Virus record (IMG/VR): IMGVR_UViG_3300022934_000213
Coordinates: 1-22,543 of that record
Reading direction: 5' to 3' (one strand)
DNA length: 22,543 nucleotides
Origin: a virus
Part shown: positions 12,143-17,426 of the stretch, one piece after another
Numbering within the stretch: the stretch's first letter is position 1
Layout: the number at the start of each line of letters is the position of its first letter
The notes under the pieces: model-generated
Told to the model about the DNA's origin: nothing
The model's input: only the letters and a program-made list of their open reading frames with translations
The model's database searches: none
Program-made: the position numbers and the translations under genes

Positions 12143-12165
12143 ATGTGTATCAACTTGGAGAAAAA

Positions 12166-12993
12166 ATGAAAAAAGTCAATTATTTAAACAACAAGGACAT
12201 TCTAGCCGAGATACACAAATCAAAAAATACTTTTTGCAGTTATACTGATAATAGTTATGCTGATTATGATATCATTTTACCTAGTATTGAAAAGGTAAAC
12301 ATTAGAACAATTGCTGAGGCAAAAAAGAACAAAGCAAAAAAACAAACACAAAGAATTTATGAAGCAGAAAAAGCTGCTGGACGCAAGAAAAAACTCTCCG
12401 AATGCGAAGTTGATTACCGTAAAATTAGCAAATATGAACTAATTTTTCGTATTATGACGTTTGATCATGTTCCAGAAGAACCAGGACGTAAGAAAAATCC
12501 TAAAACTATTGCAGATACTAAAACAAAATTGAATTTTCCTCCATTTCAGCACTACAAGTTTAACGAAAACGATGAACTTGTCTGTGTAGGCAAAAGCCAT
12601 TGGACAGGTGGAATGGAAAATGGACATTTTGACAAAACACACGGTATGGCTACAAACAAATTAGCAATGATGTGGATGAAATTGTGTGAAAGATATGCAA
12701 CTAGAGGAAATGTGCGTGGCTACACGTACAATGACGAAATGAAAGGTCAGGCTATTTTGCAATTATCACAAATTGGTTTGCAGTTTGATGAATCAAAATC
12801 ACAAAACCCATTTGCTTATTATACAGCCGCAGTTACAAATTCATTTGTAAGAGTAATTAATTTAGAAAAACGAAATCAAAATATTAGAGATGATATCCTA
12901 GAAATGAACAATCTCAACCCAAGTTACACAAGACAAAGCCAAGGCGAACACGAACGTTCTAAGGCACGTTGGGAAGAAGACTCAAAAAAATAA
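12166..12993 (+). CDS. 55: gp55, sigma-like factor for late transcription
   Basis: gp55 is the phage sigma-family protein that directs host RNA polymerase to the simple late box TATAAATA. The C-terminal half has the family features: NKLAMMWMKLCERYATRGNV, GYTYNDEMKGQAILQLSQIG, and then NPFAYYTAAVTNSFVRVINL followed by EKRNQNIRDDILEMNN, which corresponds to sigma region 2. I chose ATG 12166 (275 aa) rather than the in-frame GTG 21 nt earlier because GGAG sits 5 nt before this ATG and the GTG falls at the expected transcription start. It is longer than T4 gp55 (185 aa): the first about 130 residues are Lys-rich and not recognised. The C-terminus is charged (ARWEEDSKK). Two stop codons end it just before the gp47 promoter. 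Confidence 0.88.
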   Translation: MKKVNYLNNKDILAEIHKSKNTFCSYTDNSYADYDIILPSIEKVNIRTIAEAKKNKAKKQTQRIYEAEKAAGRKKKLSECEVDYRKISKYELIFRIMTFDHVPEEPGRKKNPKTIADTKTKLNFPPFQHYKFNENDELVCVGKSHWTGGMENGHFDKTHGMATNKLAMMWMKLCERYATRGNVRGYTYNDEMKGQAILQLSQIGLQFDESKSQNPFAYYTAAVTNSFVRVINLEKRNQNIRDDILEMNNLNPSYTRQSQGEHERSKARWEEDSKK

Positions 12994-12996
12994 TAG

Positions 12997-13025
12997 TTGA
13001 CTTTGTTTTCCTTTGATCTTATAAT
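12997..13025 (+). promoter_or_regulatory. Sigma70-type promoter for gp47-gp46
   Basis: TTGACT at 12997-13002 (one mismatch) is followed after exactly 17 nt by a perfect TATAAT at 13020-13025. The initiation site would be near 13032, about 17 nt before the TTG start at 13049. It shares the extended TAGTTGAC motif and the 17-nt spacer with the gp55 promoter, suggesting the same early/middle expression class. Confidence 0.8.
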
Positions 13026-13048
13026 AAAACTCAATACGGAGTATAAAT

Positions 13049-14059
13049 TTGTTTAAAAAAGCAGCAGTGTTTACTGACATACACTTTGGTATGAAGGGTA
13101 ATTCACGAGTACATAACCAAGATTGTGAAAACTTCATAGACTGGTACATCGAAACAGCAAAAGAAAACGGTTGCGAGACTGGTATTTTCTGCGGTGACTG
13201 GAATCATAACAGAAATAGTCTTAATTTAACAACTATGGATGCAGGTATTCGTAGTTTAGAAAAACTAGGTGCAGCATTTGAAAACTTTTATATGTTTGCA
13301 GGCAATCACGATTTGTATTACAAAGATAAACGTGATGTTAAAAGCACCGAATGGGCAAAACACATTCCAGGTATAACAGTTGTTAACGAAATACAAGTTG
13401 TAGAAGATGTAGCACTAGTTCCTTGGTTAGTAGGCGATGAATGGCGCCGTATAGAGAAGATACAAGCCAAATATTTGTTTGGACACTTTGAATTACCTAG
13501 TTTCTATATGAATGCTATGGTGCAGATGCCAGATCACGGTGAACTAAAGTCACAACACTTCAAGAATCAAGAGTATGTGTTCAGCGGACACTTCCACAAA
13601 CGTCAACGGCAGGGCAAGATCCACTACATAGGTAATGCTTTCCCACACAACTATGCAGATACTTGGGATGATGACCGTGGTATGATGATACTGGACCGTG
13701 AGAACGATGCAGAACCAGAGTATATCAACTGGCTAGACTGTCCAAAGTTTCGTACAGTTAAGTTATCTCAGTTGATTGACGAAAAAGACACACTGATCAA
13801 ACCTAATATGTACTTGAGGGTAACACTTGACCTTCCTATTTCATACGAAGAAGCAAGTTTTATTAAAGAAACATTTATAGATCAGTACAAATGTAGAGAA
13901 ATTACACTAATACCACAAAAACAAATTGAAGAAATTACAACAGAACTTGATATTGCACAGTTTGAGAGTGTGGATCAGATTGTTAGCAACGAAATTCTTG
14001 CAATTGACTCTGAATCTTTCAATAAAAAGATGCTGTTGGACATTTACAAAGAGTTATAA
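13049..14059 (+). CDS. 47: gp47 recombination endonuclease subunit (Mre11-like)
   Basis: gp47 is the metallophosphoesterase nuclease that with gp46 forms the phage Mre11-Rad50 complex, resecting DNA ends for recombination-dependent replication. The metal-binding motifs are all visible: FTDIHFG (Asp10, His12), FCGDWNHNRN (Asp50), AGNHD (Asn86, His87), FGHFELP (His146) and SGHFHKRQ (His181, His183). The length of 336 residues matches T4 gp47 (339). The start is TTG, supported by GGAG 7 nt upstream and by the protein beginning right at the first catalytic strand; no nearer ATG keeps Asp10. It overlaps gp46 by one base (TAATG), so the two subunits are translationally coupled. Confidence 0.95.
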   Translation: MFKKAAVFTDIHFGMKGNSRVHNQDCENFIDWYIETAKENGCETGIFCGDWNHNRNSLNLTTMDAGIRSLEKLGAAFENFYMFAGNHDLYYKDKRDVKSTEWAKHIPGITVVNEIQVVEDVALVPWLVGDEWRRIEKIQAKYLFGHFELPSFYMNAMVQMPDHGELKSQHFKNQEYVFSGHFHKRQRQGKIHYIGNAFPHNYADTWDDDRGMMILDRENDAEPEYINWLDCPKFRTVKLSQLIDEKDTLIKPNMYLRVTLDLPISYEEASFIKETFIDQYKCREITLIPQKQIEEITTELDIAQFESVDQIVSNEILAIDSESFNKKMLLDIYKEL

Positions 14060-15834
14060 TGATAAAATTTAAAGATTTAACCGTAAAAAACTTTATGAGT
14101 GTGGGTAATGTTACCCAAGCTGTTGACTTTGACCGTGAACAGTTAACTCTAGTGCTTGGTGAAAACTTAGACCAAGGAGGTGATGATTCAGGATCACGCA
14201 ACGGTACAGGTAAAACTACGATAATCAATGCATTGTCCTATGCCTTGTACGGCCAAGCACTAACAAACATCAAGCGTAATAACTTGATTAACAAAACCAA
14301 TAGTAAGGGCATGTTGGTTACACTAAACTTTGAAAAAGGTGGAAACAGTTATCGAATTGAACGTGGAAGATCGCCTAATGTACTAAAATTTTATGTAAAC
14401 GACCACGAACAACAAGATTTAACTGACGAATCGCAAGGCGATAGCCGTAAAACACAAGACTCTATTAATGGTTTACTTGAAATGAGTCACAATATGTTCA
14501 AGCACGTGGTTGCATTGAACACATACACCGAGCCTTTCCTAAGTATGCGACAAAATGATCAACGTGAAGTCATTGAGCAACTGCTAGGTATTACTATTTT
14601 ATCAGAAAAGGCAGATAATCTTAAAGAACAAATCAAATATACCAAAGATAGCATTACAGAAGAACAATTAAAGATTAATGCAATACAATCTTCTAATGAA
14701 AAAATCTCTCAAAGTATTAATACACTAAGAACTAGACAGTCTGCATGGAAAACAAAGCAAAAAACAGACATTGAAAAGTTAAAAAACGGTATTAAAGAAC
14801 TAGAACAAGTAGATATTGAAAAAGAACTTGAAAATCACGAACAATTACAGAATTGGCAAGAACTAAACAACAAAATAACGGCTCTTAGAAAAGAATTAAG
14901 CACGTTAGAGCCTGCACTACAACGTGCAGACAAGTCTGTAAAAAAGGTTACTAAAGACATTGCAGAATTAGACGATGCTATTTGTTATACATGTGGTCAA
15001 GAACTACATGAAACTAAGAAAGCAGAGATTCTTGCAACTAAAACTAAAGATCTAGCCGATGCCAGAGCATATTTCATTGAAATAAAAAATAAATTTGATG
15101 ATAACGCTGTTGAATTGGGTATAATTGGTGATATTGACGGTCGTCCTACTACATTTTATGATACAATGCGTGAAGCATATGAACATAGAAACAACGTAGA
15201 TAACTTAAAGAATACATTGCTAAGTAAAGAGCAAGAAGAAGACCCTTATCAGGCACAAATTGACGATTTAACTAACACAGCACTGCAAGATATCGATTGG
15301 TCAGTTATAAATCAACTGAATACTTTCAAAGAACACCAAGAGTTTTTGTTAAAACTACTAACAAACAAAGATTCTTTCATAAGAAAGAAGATTATTGATC
15401 AAAATCTTGCATATCTAAACAACAGGCTTACGAATTATCTCGATAAGTTAGGCTTACCTCATCAAGTTACATTCCAAAACGACTTAGCCGTTGAAATAAC
15501 ACAACTTGGCCAAGACTTAGACTTTGATAACTTGTCAAGAGGTGAACGCAATAGGCTAATACTTGGTATGAGTTTTGCATTCCGTGATGTTTGGGAGTCA
15601 TTGTACCAAGGACTGAACCTATTATTCATTGACGAACTTATTGATAGTGGTATGGACAGTCAGGGTGTCGAGAATTCTTTGAGTGTACTAAAGAAGATGG
15701 GCAGAGAAAGACAGAAAAACATCTATTTGATTAGTCATAAAGACGAACTAGTAGGCAGAGTAAACAATATTCTAAAGGTTGTAAAGGAAAATGGCTTTAC
15801 TTCATACGAAAACGACATTGAAGTGGTAGAATGA
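14059..15834 (+). CDS. 46: gp46 recombination endonuclease subunit (Rad50-like ATPase)
   Basis: This SMC/Rad50-type ATPase partners gp47. The Walker A motif is GSRNGTGKTT (about 45-54, Lys52). A long Lys/Glu-rich coiled coil spans about 190-430 and is interrupted by the zinc hook CYTCGQEL (Cys309, Cys312). The ABC signature is LSRGERNRL (about 492-500) and Walker B is LLFIDELIDSGMD (Asp525, Glu526). A His in the switch region follows (LISHKDE). At 591 residues it is slightly longer than T4 gp46 (560). All motifs are intact. The 3' end overlaps the next start as ATGA. Family knowledge says the ATPase opens and closes the gp47 active site on DNA ends. Confidence 0.95.
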   Translation: MIKFKDLTVKNFMSVGNVTQAVDFDREQLTLVLGENLDQGGDDSGSRNGTGKTTIINALSYALYGQALTNIKRNNLINKTNSKGMLVTLNFEKGGNSYRIERGRSPNVLKFYVNDHEQQDLTDESQGDSRKTQDSINGLLEMSHNMFKHVVALNTYTEPFLSMRQNDQREVIEQLLGITILSEKADNLKEQIKYTKDSITEEQLKINAIQSSNEKISQSINTLRTRQSAWKTKQKTDIEKLKNGIKELEQVDIEKELENHEQLQNWQELNNKITALRKELSTLEPALQRADKSVKKVTKDIAELDDAICYTCGQELHETKKAEILATKTKDLADARAYFIEIKNKFDDNAVELGIIGDIDGRPTTFYDTMREAYEHRNNVDNLKNTLLSKEQEEDPYQAQIDDLTNTALQDIDWSVINQLNTFKEHQEFLLKLLTNKDSFIRKKIIDQNLAYLNNRLTNYLDKLGLPHQVTFQNDLAVEITQLGQDLDFDNLSRGERNRLILGMSFAFRDVWESLYQGLNLLFIDELIDSGMDSQGVENSLSVLKKMGRERQKNIYLISHKDELVGRVNNILKVVKENGFTSYENDIEVVE

Positions 15835-16058
15835 TTGAAGACGATGTACATGATCAATTGGTAAAAGAGTATTTGGCTTACTTTAAAGCCAATGAAATAT
15901 TTTTACAAAGGCCATCTGAGGCAAAAAGACGAGTAGTTCGCAAACATTTAAGTCAAATTATGAAACTAGCAAAGGTAAGACGTTTAGAAATACAAGAAAT
16001 ACACCAACAGGCACTAAAAAAACATCCTCTATCCAAAACAAGAGAAGAAAGCACATAG
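15831..16058 (+). CDS. Small basic helical protein, unknown (75 aa)
   Basis: I do not recognise this gene. It starts within the gp46 stop (ATGA overlap), so it is part of the same operon and translationally coupled. The product is a predicted all-helical, strongly basic protein with many Lys/Arg/Gln residues (SEAKRRVVRKHLSQIMKLAK, VRRLEIQEIHQQALKKH) and no cysteines, signal or membrane segment. Its place behind gp46/47 suggests an accessory to recombination or a nucleic-acid binder, which is inference only. Confidence 0.75.
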   Translation: MIEDDVHDQLVKEYLAYFKANEIFLQRPSEAKRRVVRKHLSQIMKLAKVRRLEIQEIHQQALKKHPLSKTREEST

Positions 16059-16076
16059 GCACACATAAATTACTGT

Positions 16077-16511
16077 ATGAATTGGATATATCAAGGTAAA
16101 GAAGTAACAGAAATACCAAACGAGTACGAAGGGTTTGTTTACCTTATTACTAATTTAACGGACAATCGCAAATACGTAGGCAAAAAACTAGCAAAGTTTA
16201 AAACAACCAAACCACCGCTTAAAGGCAAAAAAAATAAAAGACGAGGCTACAAGGAATCAGATTGGCGAGACTATTGGGGATCGTCAGATAAACTAATAGC
16301 AGACGTAGAAAAATTAGGCGAAAACAAGTTTACAAGAGAAATACTTTATTTTTGTAAATCTAGAGGCGAAATGTCATATTTAGAGGCACGAGAACAATTT
16401 GAACGTAGAGTTTTAGAAACAGATGAATACTATAATGGTATTATAAACGTTCGAGTTGGTGGTTCAAAAATACTTAGAGAAAATTTAAAGGCACATCAGG
16501 ACACTGTTTGA
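16077..16511 (+). CDS. SegE-like GIY-YIG endonuclease
   Basis: The N-terminal part shows a divergent GIY-YIG signature: FVYLITNLTDNRKYVGKK (about 20-37), where VYLIT takes the GIY position and KYVGKK the YIG position. A basic loop follows, then ESDWRDYWGSSDKLIADVEK (60-79) and FTREILYFCKSRGEMSYLEA with a candidate catalytic Glu near 103 (YLEAREQFERR). This layout matches phage proteins related to the T4 free-standing homing endonuclease SegE. Such enzymes cut DNA and can spread themselves; some have been taken over for replication or recombination roles. It follows gp46 and the 75-aa gene with an 18-nt gap and no evident Shine-Dalgarno. Immediately downstream is the G+C-rich self-complementary element. 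Confidence 0.78.
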   Translation: MNWIYQGKEVTEIPNEYEGFVYLITNLTDNRKYVGKKLAKFKTTKPPLKGKKNKRRGYKESDWRDYWGSSDKLIADVEKLGENKFTREILYFCKSRGEMSYLEAREQFERRVLETDEYYNGIINVRVGGSKILRENLKAHQDTV

Positions 16512-16527
16512 TCGGAATTGTTCGATC
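16510..16527 (+). other. Short inverted repeat at the end of the endonuclease gene
   Basis: GATCG pairs with CGATC, with AA/TT continuing inward past a one-base bulge, giving about seven pairs around a TTG loop. It overlaps the stop codon of the endonuclease gene and the first bases of helix H1. No T-run follows, so it is not a typical terminator; it may be an alternative fold at the 5' end of the structured element. Confidence 0.4.
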
Positions 16528-16760
16528 CACCTTGAGCTTCACGTAACCACGTGATCAGACACTGGTGAAGTCCCACAGGCTGTATGCTACGAAAACCCCT
16601 TAGCACTAGGAACGAAGCGGGGGATAGCGCATTTTGCGTGATGTCGACGTAGGTTGGGAAAGGTTAGAGCCCAGTAGCAAAGTCAAATACCTACTTCCAA
16701 GTCTCGGCTATGCAACTCACATGAAGCTCGAGGAGGATGGAACCGCTGCAAGGTTCCGTC
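16525..16760 (+). ncRNA. Candidate structured non-coding RNA (unrecognised class)
   Basis: The interval folds into a nested set of helices read directly from complementarity. H1: 16525-16541 with 16722-16738, 17 positions, 15 Watson-Crick, one G-U, one A-A mismatch. H2: 16557-16570 with 16694-16704, ten pairs with small bulges. H3: 16585-16590 with 16674-16679, six perfect pairs. H4: 16596-16599 with 16619-16622. H5: hairpin 16624-16642. H6: 16655-16658 with 16670-16673. A possible pseudoknot joins 16649-16654 to 16689-16694 (six perfect pairs). A 3' hairpin pairs 16736-16744 with 16752-16760 (nine pairs, one G-U), competing with three pairs of H1. Wobble pairs are G-U on the plus strand and would be A-C on the other, so the RNA is probably plus-strand. 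I see no tRNA, tmRNA, RNase P or riboswitch signature. Confidence 0.6.
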
Positions 16761-16785
16761 TGACTAATTAATCTACATGAAACTA

Positions 16786-16798
16786 AGTGCTTCGCACT
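16786..16798 (+). other. Hairpin 1 (AGTGC-TTC-GCACT)
   Basis: Five perfect pairs close a TTC triloop. It is followed by A-rich sequence, not by a T-run on either strand at the correct side, so it is not an intrinsic terminator. It is the first of three hairpins between the structured element and the late promoter. Confidence 0.55.
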
Positions 16799-16813
16799 AA
16801 TAAAAAAACAAAT

Positions 16814-16840
16814 ATAGTTTGAGCGATAGCGAAAACTTAT
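16814..16840 (+). other. Hairpin 2 (ATAGTTT ... AAACTTAT)
   Basis: Seven pairs with one bulged T enclose a GAGCGATAGCGA interior that can form two further pairs. The last two bases overlap the stem of hairpin 3, so the two probably compete or switch. Confidence 0.4.
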
Positions 16841-16857
16841 TGCTACGTAGTAGCAAT
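16839..16857 (+). other. Hairpin 3 (ATTGCTAC-GTA-GTAGCAAT)
   Basis: Eight perfect pairs close a three-base loop, ending 13 nt before the late box. It is strong enough to act as an RNA 3'-end protector or processing signal; no T-run follows on the plus strand. Function unknown. Confidence 0.6.
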
Positions 16858-16870
16858 ACTAAATAATTCA

Positions 16871-16878
16871 TATAAATA
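16871..16878 (+). promoter_or_regulatory. T4-type late promoter (TATAAATA)
   Basis: A perfect match to the T4 late -10 box lies 30 nt before the ATG at 16908. No -35 element is needed for gp55-directed late promoters. A start near 16885 gives a leader of about 23 nt containing AAAAAGGA. Confidence 0.72.
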
Positions 16879-16907
16879 AATATAACAACATCAAAAAGGA
16901 TTGTCTT

Positions 16908-17426
16908 ATGAAAGTATTTGAGATTATTAGTGAAGATAACGTAAGTGAAAAACCAATGGGATTGCTAAAAAGAGCAGGACTTGGTGCTATGAGTAAATTA
17001 GGCAGTAAAACTGCAAAAGCAAAACTTGATGTAGGCAAAGATGCAAACCAAACCAAAAAAGATCTAAGTGTATGGATGGCAGGTAGTGGCATTAAAAAAG
17101 GAAAACTAGAACCTGATCAACTCAAGGGTTTTCTAAGACAAAAAGGTTTACCTACTACTGATGTTGATATGATTTTAGGTAAGTCAAGAGAAGCAGGTGG
17201 TAGAGATGAAAATGAACCACTAAGCAATCCTGAAGTAGATGAGATTTTAAAGAAAGTAACACAGCAAGGCTTTCAAAGATCTGGTGCTGGTGATCCTAAG
17301 AAACGTAGTAAGTTTGCATCACCGGATGCTACACCACAGTGGGCAACATCAAGAATTTCACCTGAAGAAAAAACAGCAATTGCAATGCTTAAGAAAAAAG
17401 GCTACAAAGTTTCACAGCCTTCTTAA
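16908..17426 (+). CDS. Candidate internal head protein with capsid-targeting N-terminus
   Basis: The family is not recognised. The 172-residue product begins MKVFEIISE, which resembles the capsid-targeting peptides of T4 internal proteins (MKTYQEFI-x-E type), and I-S-E fits the (I/L)-x-E site of the T4 prohead protease, predicting cleavage after Glu9. The rest is basic and low in aromatic residues (LLKRAGLGAMSKLGSKTAKA, GDPKKRSKFASPDATPQ, MLKKKGYKV), with no Cys, signal peptide or membrane segment. It has its own perfect late box and an AAGGA Shine-Dalgarno. Together these suggest a protein packaged inside the head and perhaps injected. Without the N-terminal argument it would be a plain hypothetical protein. 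It stops immediately next to the stop of the convergent frame. Confidence 0.78.
   Translation: MKVFEIISEDNVSEKPMGLLKRAGLGAMSKLGSKTAKAKLDVGKDANQTKKDLSVWMAGSGIKKGKLEPDQLKGFLRQKGLPTTDVDMILGKSREAGGRDENEPLSNPEVDEILKKVTQQGFQRSGAGDPKKRSKFASPDATPQWATSRISPEEKTAIAMLKKKGYKVSQPS
17391..17421 (-). terminator. Probable intrinsic terminator for the leftward gp26-family unit
   Basis: On the minus strand AAGGCT (17421-17416) pairs with AGCCTT (17403-17398) around a 12-nt loop, and the distal arm runs into a T-rich tract TTTTTTCTT. The signal lies just past the minus-strand stop at 17427 and inside the last codons of the convergent plus-strand gene. The stem is only six pairs, so efficiency may be modest. Confidence 0.45.

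Follow-up and report, generated by a model that had tools for sequence, protein, structure and literature searches.

A structured phage RNA behind a SegE-type GIY-YIG gene carries two matched 7-nt words and reads as a new noncoding RNA family

The DNA stretch analysed here, referred to throughout as the window, comprises positions 1–22,543 (22,543 nt) of the IMG/VR record IMGVR_UViG_3300022934_000213 and belongs to an uncultured bacterial virus. The genes for a late sigma factor, SbcD, and gp46 at 12145–15834 are arranged in the same order as in Pseudomonas phage PA5oct (Arenbergviridae), and the gp46 of the window is 48% identical to that of PA5oct. Downstream, a 144-codon ORF encoding a SegE-type GIY-YIG endonuclease and an ORF starting at 16908 border a gap which hosts a structured RNA (Table 1). 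The 5′ end of this RNA overlaps the last codons of the endonuclease gene, whose stop codon is located inside the 5′ domain; the limits of the RNA are those of the conserved structure and not mapped transcript ends.

An earlier note on this DNA pointed to a G+C-rich island, and 104 of the 200 bases in 16561–16760 are indeed G or C. Over 16499–16783 the G+C content is 49.1% versus 35.4% in the whole window, and 6 of 4452 sampled segments of this size, overlapping ones included, are equally rich. As a single sequence the RNA of the window folds unremarkably (z = −1.21; 25 of 200 shuffles fold equally well), and its more-than-chance structure is stated because of comparative evidence, which folding of the lone sequence would not show.

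Table 1. Coordinates of the features at the RNA locus (positions of the window; pairs of segments are the two strands of a helix).
Feature	Position	Strand	Remarks
SegE-type GIY-YIG endonuclease gene, 144 aa	16077-16511	+	Pfam PF19835, E=1.3e-34
Structured RNA, ~285 nt	16499-16782	+	5′ bound, GGAC/GUCC helix; 3′ bound, second 7-nt word
5′ domain type A, three-way junction	16499-16573	+	GGAC/GUCC helix 16499-16502/16570-16573
Type-A hairpin	16510-16514/16523-16527	+	part of 5′ three-way domain
Type-A helix	16529-16531/16564-16566	+	part of 5′ three-way domain
Helix A	16584-16590/16674-16680	+	two-sided changes in 7/7 pairs; 84.5% of cells paired
Hairpin H1, conserved loop AGGAACGA (GGAACGA)	16596-16623	+	5/7 pairs changed on both sides
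Hairpin S2, length varies among genomes	16627-16639	+	two-sided changes in 6/6 pairs; 82.2% of cells paired
Near-invariant GAUGUCGAC	16640-16648	+	alignment A1
Helix B, 5′ strand GUAGGU	16649-16654	+	pairs with 16689-16694; paired in 61/61
Hairpin E, GGG/CCC stem, near-invariant loop AAAGGUYAGAG	16656-16672	+	stem invariant in 61
Helix B, 3′ strand ACCUAC, and invariant UUCC	16689-16698	+	alignment A1
Hairpin C, word R1 on 3′ side	16702-16733	+	79% of cells paired; 2/5 pairs changed on both sides; moderate support
Word R1, ACAUGAA	16719-16725	+	
Hairpin D	16736-16760	+	paired in 99.3% of cells; changes mainly one-sided, two-sided in a single pair
Word R2, ACAUGAA	16775-16781	+	
Hairpins GUGCUUCGCAC, GUUUGAGCGAUAGCGAAAAC, AUUGCUACGUAGUAGCAAU	within 16785-16880		3′ of the RNA, before the TATAAATA box; similar ones in relatives
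TATAAATA box	16871-16878		precedes next gene (ORF from 16908)

Many members of a group of uncultured phages, seen here solely as metagenome-derived contigs, share the RNA. An exact 22-mer from the region matches 31 IMG/VR contig stretches and two further core patterns have at least 119 matches each among IMG/VR contigs, such contig counts being lower bounds since they cover the matches listed. The core (core 1) is present, once each, in 232 of 409 gathered loci, which gave 137 distinct sequences with the window's type included; a loose-pattern contig scan returned 117 loci that are chance matches, with the core in none of them. In 133 of the 137 distinct RNAs the GIY-YIG gene precedes the RNA in the same orientation, the remaining four having no more than 257 nt of upstream DNA. 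Conversely, among the best 80 GIY-YIG loci core 1 was found in 57 by pattern and in 2 more with one mismatch, a second core described below was found in 7, and 14 end too early to be judged; in all 66 judgeable loci one of the two RNAs is thus located behind the GIY-YIG gene.

The usual order in the set of 63 loci checked for synteny is gp47, gp46, small ORF, GIY-YIG, RNA, variable genes, and baseplate gene, and the GIY-YIG and small-ORF families are present in 59 of these 63. A phage-borne hemC gene (porphobilinogen deaminase; family F16) lies between gp46 and the small ORF in locus L033 (2925–3773; PF01379, E=3.8e-63) and in nine other loci. In 6 of 67 loci with a 5′ module of type B, the GIY-YIG stop is separated from the RNA by 245–290 nt, seemingly the end of another ORF; extra sequence at this place is seen in L027, L306, L320, and others. 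In 11 of the 12 large core-1 records a covariance model of the 3′ part of the RNA detects a single copy, apart from weak opposite-strand shadows at the same place; the fetched stretch of the twelfth stops inside the RNA. With this model, whose E-values are rough, the best score was E=0.79 in three records with the second core and E=1.5 in five named phages. The blastn search (E≤1), in which core 1 was represented by three sequences and core 2 by one, matched 0 of 50,697 phage records, a set from which records very near to the window may be omitted, and no named phage record searched contains the RNA. The carrying records reach 256 kb; therefore the phages may be jumbo-type, and the RNA supplies a marker and a covariance model for this phage group.

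The RNA might be a cis element, serving either the endonuclease message, as a 3′ UTR structure that stabilises or terminates it, or the downstream late genes, as their leader or sensor. In favour of this, it overlaps the last codons or the stop of the endonuclease gene in 57 of the 94 measured loci, hairpins follow it, and the TATAAATA box before the next gene is taken to be late-type by the late consensus. Such a role has a rather small probability, as the RNA is far more elaborate and conserved than these elements require, the downstream genes vary and own a late-type box, and the terminator-like sites within 15800–17000 lie on the other strand only, the last hairpin listed in Table 1 being terminator-like on the minus strand only.

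The core fold was studied in alignment A1, which holds 61 sequences of less than 90% similarity with S2 no longer than 75 nt; L342 was omitted by hand (R2 mis-segmented), and 4 of the 137 distinct RNAs failed the segmenting pattern. The 43-pair model has 91.5% of cells paired, compared with 35–43% for slid partners, where cell counts are not independent events because the aligned sequences share ancestry. Two-sided changes were counted in 321 cells versus 109 in shuffles, with 0 of 500 shuffles reaching 321, and in 21 pairs versus 17.8, a value reached by 13 of 500. In general none of the 500 shuffles matches the alignment in paired cells, double-changed cells, or covariation score, while 13 and 30 do so in two other measures. 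The mutual-information scan, which is blind to the model, placed all of its seven strongest pairs within helix A, S2, and H1. Compensatory change exceeds that of both shuffles and slid controls, and the element is a covarying structured RNA. In addition, the modelled pairs contain 195 G-U cells versus 35 A-C cells, and therefore the plus strand is the RNA strand, in agreement with the orientation of transcription proposed before.

Helix A corresponds to the six-pair helix 16585–16590/16674–16679 of the earlier note, in which every pair shows two-sided changes among the 61 copies; five of these pairs are formed in 57–60 of the 61, while the sixth, 16590/16674, is formed in only 16, and at the other end of helix A the pair 16584/16680 is open in the window itself. 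The possible pseudoknot 16649–16654/16689–16694 reappears as helix B, which crosses helix A; one of its pairs varies between G-C and G-U and the others are invariant, so this near-invariance provides no covariation for or against it. The nine-pair hairpin noticed at 16736–16760 was recovered as hairpin D. A kissing helix of loop E with UCUGACY at 16759–16765, pairable in 99.8% of cells with no covariation, may be offered as a proposal only.

The 5′ part of the RNA exists in several module types, 29 of the 137 RNAs carrying type A as in the window, 93 type B, and 8 type C, while 7 are unassigned; B or C replaces A elsewhere. In alignment A3, which includes 27 of the 29 type-A sequences (L039 and L136 omitted), the type-A domain has 100% of 319 cells paired and 38 changed on both sides, a result reached by 0 of 500 shuffles. 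The fold predicted from the alignments comprises, from 5′ to 3′, this domain or another module, a pseudoknotted core, and two hairpins.

Two other helices suggested previously did not hold. The 17-position closing helix 16525–16541/16722–16738 has 16 standard pairs in the window, yet in 27 copies with the type-A module 60.9% of its cells are paired, no pair is changed on both sides, and 481 of 500 shuffles pair equally well or better; because its 5′ strand lies in the fully supported type-A domain, it competes with this domain. The helix is not conserved, and the architecture in which it encloses everything else is unsupported. Nor did the bulged helix 16557–16570/16694–16704 hold: 8 pairs outside its middle part were tested, of which 3 are present in all 27 copies and the remaining ones in 2–21 of 27. 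Both the 5′ domain and helix B share positions with its strands.

None of the 4227 families of Rfam 15 reached its gathering score across the whole window. At E≤10 over 16500–16910 there were three weak matches, none of them beginning before 16781, and six related loci with both cores represented (L055 and L072 included) gave one weak match, outside the RNA; tRNA or tmRNA was not found in the window. The main statement of the earlier note, a phage-encoded plus-strand structured RNA which matches no known family, therefore holds, with homologues that change in a compensatory manner.

The most unusual property of the RNA, absent from the earlier note, is the relation of words R1 and R2. Positions 1–6 are identical between them in all 137 RNAs and position 7 in 135, but position 8 in only 52, and the flanks are unlike (CUC versus UCU), which means that the match is a sharp 7-mer. 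The spacing is 54–68 nt, mostly 56–62 nt, and approximately 57 nt in the window. Across genomes the words include ACAUGAA, ACAUAAU, ACAUGAU, GUAUGAA, ACGUGAA, GCAUGAA, GCAUAAA, ACAGGAA, ACAUGAG, and ACAUAAA, and in 36 of the 38 RNAs which do not carry the majority word twice both words agree over all 7 nt. The alignment shows that R1 and R2 change together between genomes: the columns from 248-318 to 252-322 share all of their information with zero complementarity (0.84 for 254-324), and in the mutual-information scan only the partner word explains the word changes, except for one position varying in a single sequence. R1 was defined as the word flanked by ACTC or GCTC which is most like R2, and taking the unselected first match resulted in the same classes. 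To our knowledge, no RNA family has two words bound to each other by identity rather than pairing.

Several origins of this match were considered and rejected. An internal pairing partner is excluded, as no 6-nt complement of the words was found at a consistent place inside the RNA. Coding or ribosome bypassing does not fit, since the word spacing keeps no frame and the core-R1 lengths differ by 1–2 bases. Template jumping by a phage reverse transcriptase was rejected because none was detected in the 12 large records examined, by a search that is positive in 3 of 14 control genomes. The 15 nt around R2 (16773–16787) recur in the gp46 gene of the window at 15004–15018; this match was not considered meaningful, as upstream matches of at least 10 nt occur for 15 of 100 R2 regions versus 56 of 570 random segments (Fisher p=0.16), at most a slight excess. 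Two rare words, ACATGAG and ACATAAA, show a higher density in the loci that carry them, a difference based on 5 and 2 occurrences, respectively.

Some recombinases require identical overlap regions, which two matched 7-bp direct repeats would resemble, and the locus could in principle be a DNA-level element (crossover sites, replication origin, or nuclease target) mimicking an RNA. This is very improbable: the excess of G-U over A-C cells and the compensatory pattern described above point to RNA folding, and the fetched flanks hold no consistently placed third copy of the words, nor a complement, single extra copies being present in some loci.

The word rule is not confined to one core. In seven loci the GIY-YIG gene is followed by a second, different core, joined to 5′ module A or C and to a similar 3′ tail, and a pattern scan detected it in at least 51 contig stretches; modules A and C are each found with both cores. 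Loci with the second core include L055 (1715–2090), L072, and L417–L467. All 26 distinct copies with enough flank follow a GIY-YIG gene, and their words (GAAUAAU, GAAUGAU, AGAUGAU) agree at positions 1–6 in 26 of 26 and at position 7 in 23 of 26, with a spacing of 56–58 nt. Therefore two different cores obey one word rule.

A pseudoknotted, near-invariant core together with equal words of sharp edges and nearly fixed spacing, and a second core subject to the same rule, might indicate a self-processing RNA, in which a ribozyme-like core would cut, or cut and join, at the words and so free or remove the segment of about 57 nt. This explanation is improbable, as the RNA has no internal guide complementary to the words and no Rfam model match, and both words are retained in all 137 and 26 copies with no collapsed form among them. 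A degenerate ribozyme, suggested in the earlier note, is unlikely for a sequence so conserved; an active one is conceivable.

The upstream protein is a bare 144-aa GIY-YIG domain. Among 125 such proteins, which were script-extracted from the 137 loci, residues Y22, Y33, G35, R56, E103, and E106 are kept in at least 98%, and the match to PF19835 together with the catalytic Tyr, Arg, and Glu identifies the gene product as a probable SegE-type homing endonuclease. Its best PHROG match, PHROG 447, is labelled NAD synthetase, a name common in phage records which looks like a mislabel. The nearest named relative, from phage Melnitz, is 72% identical and encoded just after the ribonucleotide reductase gene, and the phiN3 relative is 47% identical; both stand in other gene neighbourhoods, and such an RNA is absent from both loci examined, so the pairing of enzyme and RNA is not general. 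GIY-YIG proteins as few as 6 differences apart are accompanied by different words; therefore the enzyme is not obviously the word reader, and word choice by large changes of this protein was rejected; small determinants may exist. PA5oct was considered as an empty site, but the gene after its gp46 is not the baseplate gene of the window (E=0.57; a weak match with E=0.004 lies further on). Therefore no clean empty site is shown, which makes the homing part of the interpretation weaker.

The endonuclease association proposed earlier accordingly stands as adjacency (133 of 137 core-1 and 26 of 26 core-2 copies), while a direct enzyme-RNA partnership is possible. The latter would be a ribonucleoprotein with the RNA as scaffold or guide for the upstream GIY-YIG nuclease, in the manner of the IscB, IsrB, and TnpB RNAs, and the adjacency, the frequent overlap of the RNA with the ORF end, and the conserved catalytic residues would all suit it. 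It is nevertheless improbable, given the Melnitz and phiN3 enzymes without such an RNA, the bare domain of the protein, and words that vary little, unlike guides, with no consistently placed target nearby.

Taken together, the element reads as a new phage noncoding RNA family with two equal sites for one partner, its function being inferred from comparative data. The best explanation as a whole, to which we assign a probability of slightly less than one half, is a structured RNA acting in trans which presents twin words to one partner and has a homing enzyme as neighbour. The RNA would be transcribed with or just after the endonuclease gene and then processed, would fold alone, and would hold two equivalent words for one partner, either a protein dimer or another RNA; a single partner for both would explain the equality of the words and the lack of a complement in the RNA. 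For the endonuclease, the simplest reading is a free-standing homing enzyme which may travel with the RNA gene and spread it by gene conversion, and this would explain both the strict adjacency and the shuffled 5′ modules and cores.

Equality without complementarity is most simply read as two equivalent sites for one partner, with cut-and-join as a bolder alternative. An unlikely but far-reaching possibility is a new kind of RNA machine that acts on two matched 7-nt sites, either cutting and joining at its own words by identity or holding two partner copies side by side, with two different cores adapted to one such word pair next to the GIY-YIG gene; if true, its rule for cutting and joining RNA would be identity instead of complementarity. 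Structured RNAs of large size and near-invariant core are uncommon, and they have frequently proved to be ribozymes, scaffolds, or assemblies.

Among known systems, candidate structured RNAs of viruses and phages have reportedly been surveyed, and the present RNA may be an unnamed entry in that survey. No description of it was found in the open-licence literature searched, including the available parts of PMC9004378, PMC12350094, and PMC12286853, which is no proof that it was never listed. According to the available part of the last source, GOLLD and ROOL are large ornate phage or prophage RNAs whose function is not known (PMC12286853). They are likewise phage-encoded and elaborate, with pseudoknots stated for ROOL, but measure from ~660 to >800 nt versus ~285 nt here, as far as that part of the source describes them (PMC12286853). 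Unlike them, the present RNA lies behind a GIY-YIG gene and has concerted 7-nt words; membership in these families was rejected, as there is no model match and no tRNA in the window, although a tRNA neighbourhood is common for the family.

The HEARO/OMEGA RNAs of IscB-IsrB and TnpB are also structured RNAs beside an endonuclease gene; HEARO is an Rfam family, and in TnpB systems the RNA often overlaps the 3′ end of the gene. The RNA described here differs in an unrelated nuclease family, in the lack of a variable guide and of an Rfam match, and in its one syntenic place in the loci examined. An OMEGA-like guide was rejected on account of the small variation of the words and of the flanks, in which neither a third copy nor a complement is consistently placed. 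Group I introns, whose core has the order P7-P3-P8, were rejected as well, with no Rfam model match even at relaxed E-values and no interrupted gene seen; unlike that order, hairpin E is placed between the 5′ strand of helix B and the 3′ strand of helix A. Similarly, for a group II intron there is no domain V model match and no reverse transcriptase in the 12 large carrying records. The closest protein likeness is to the seg genes of T4, which are free-standing homing endonucleases, the GIY-YIG gene being a member of the SegE family; the difference is that it is tied to a gene for a structured RNA rather than to one for a protein or to a group I intron. Known structured phage RNAs beside homing endonuclease genes show the same arrangement, while the words of the RNA described here are identical to each other and not complementary.
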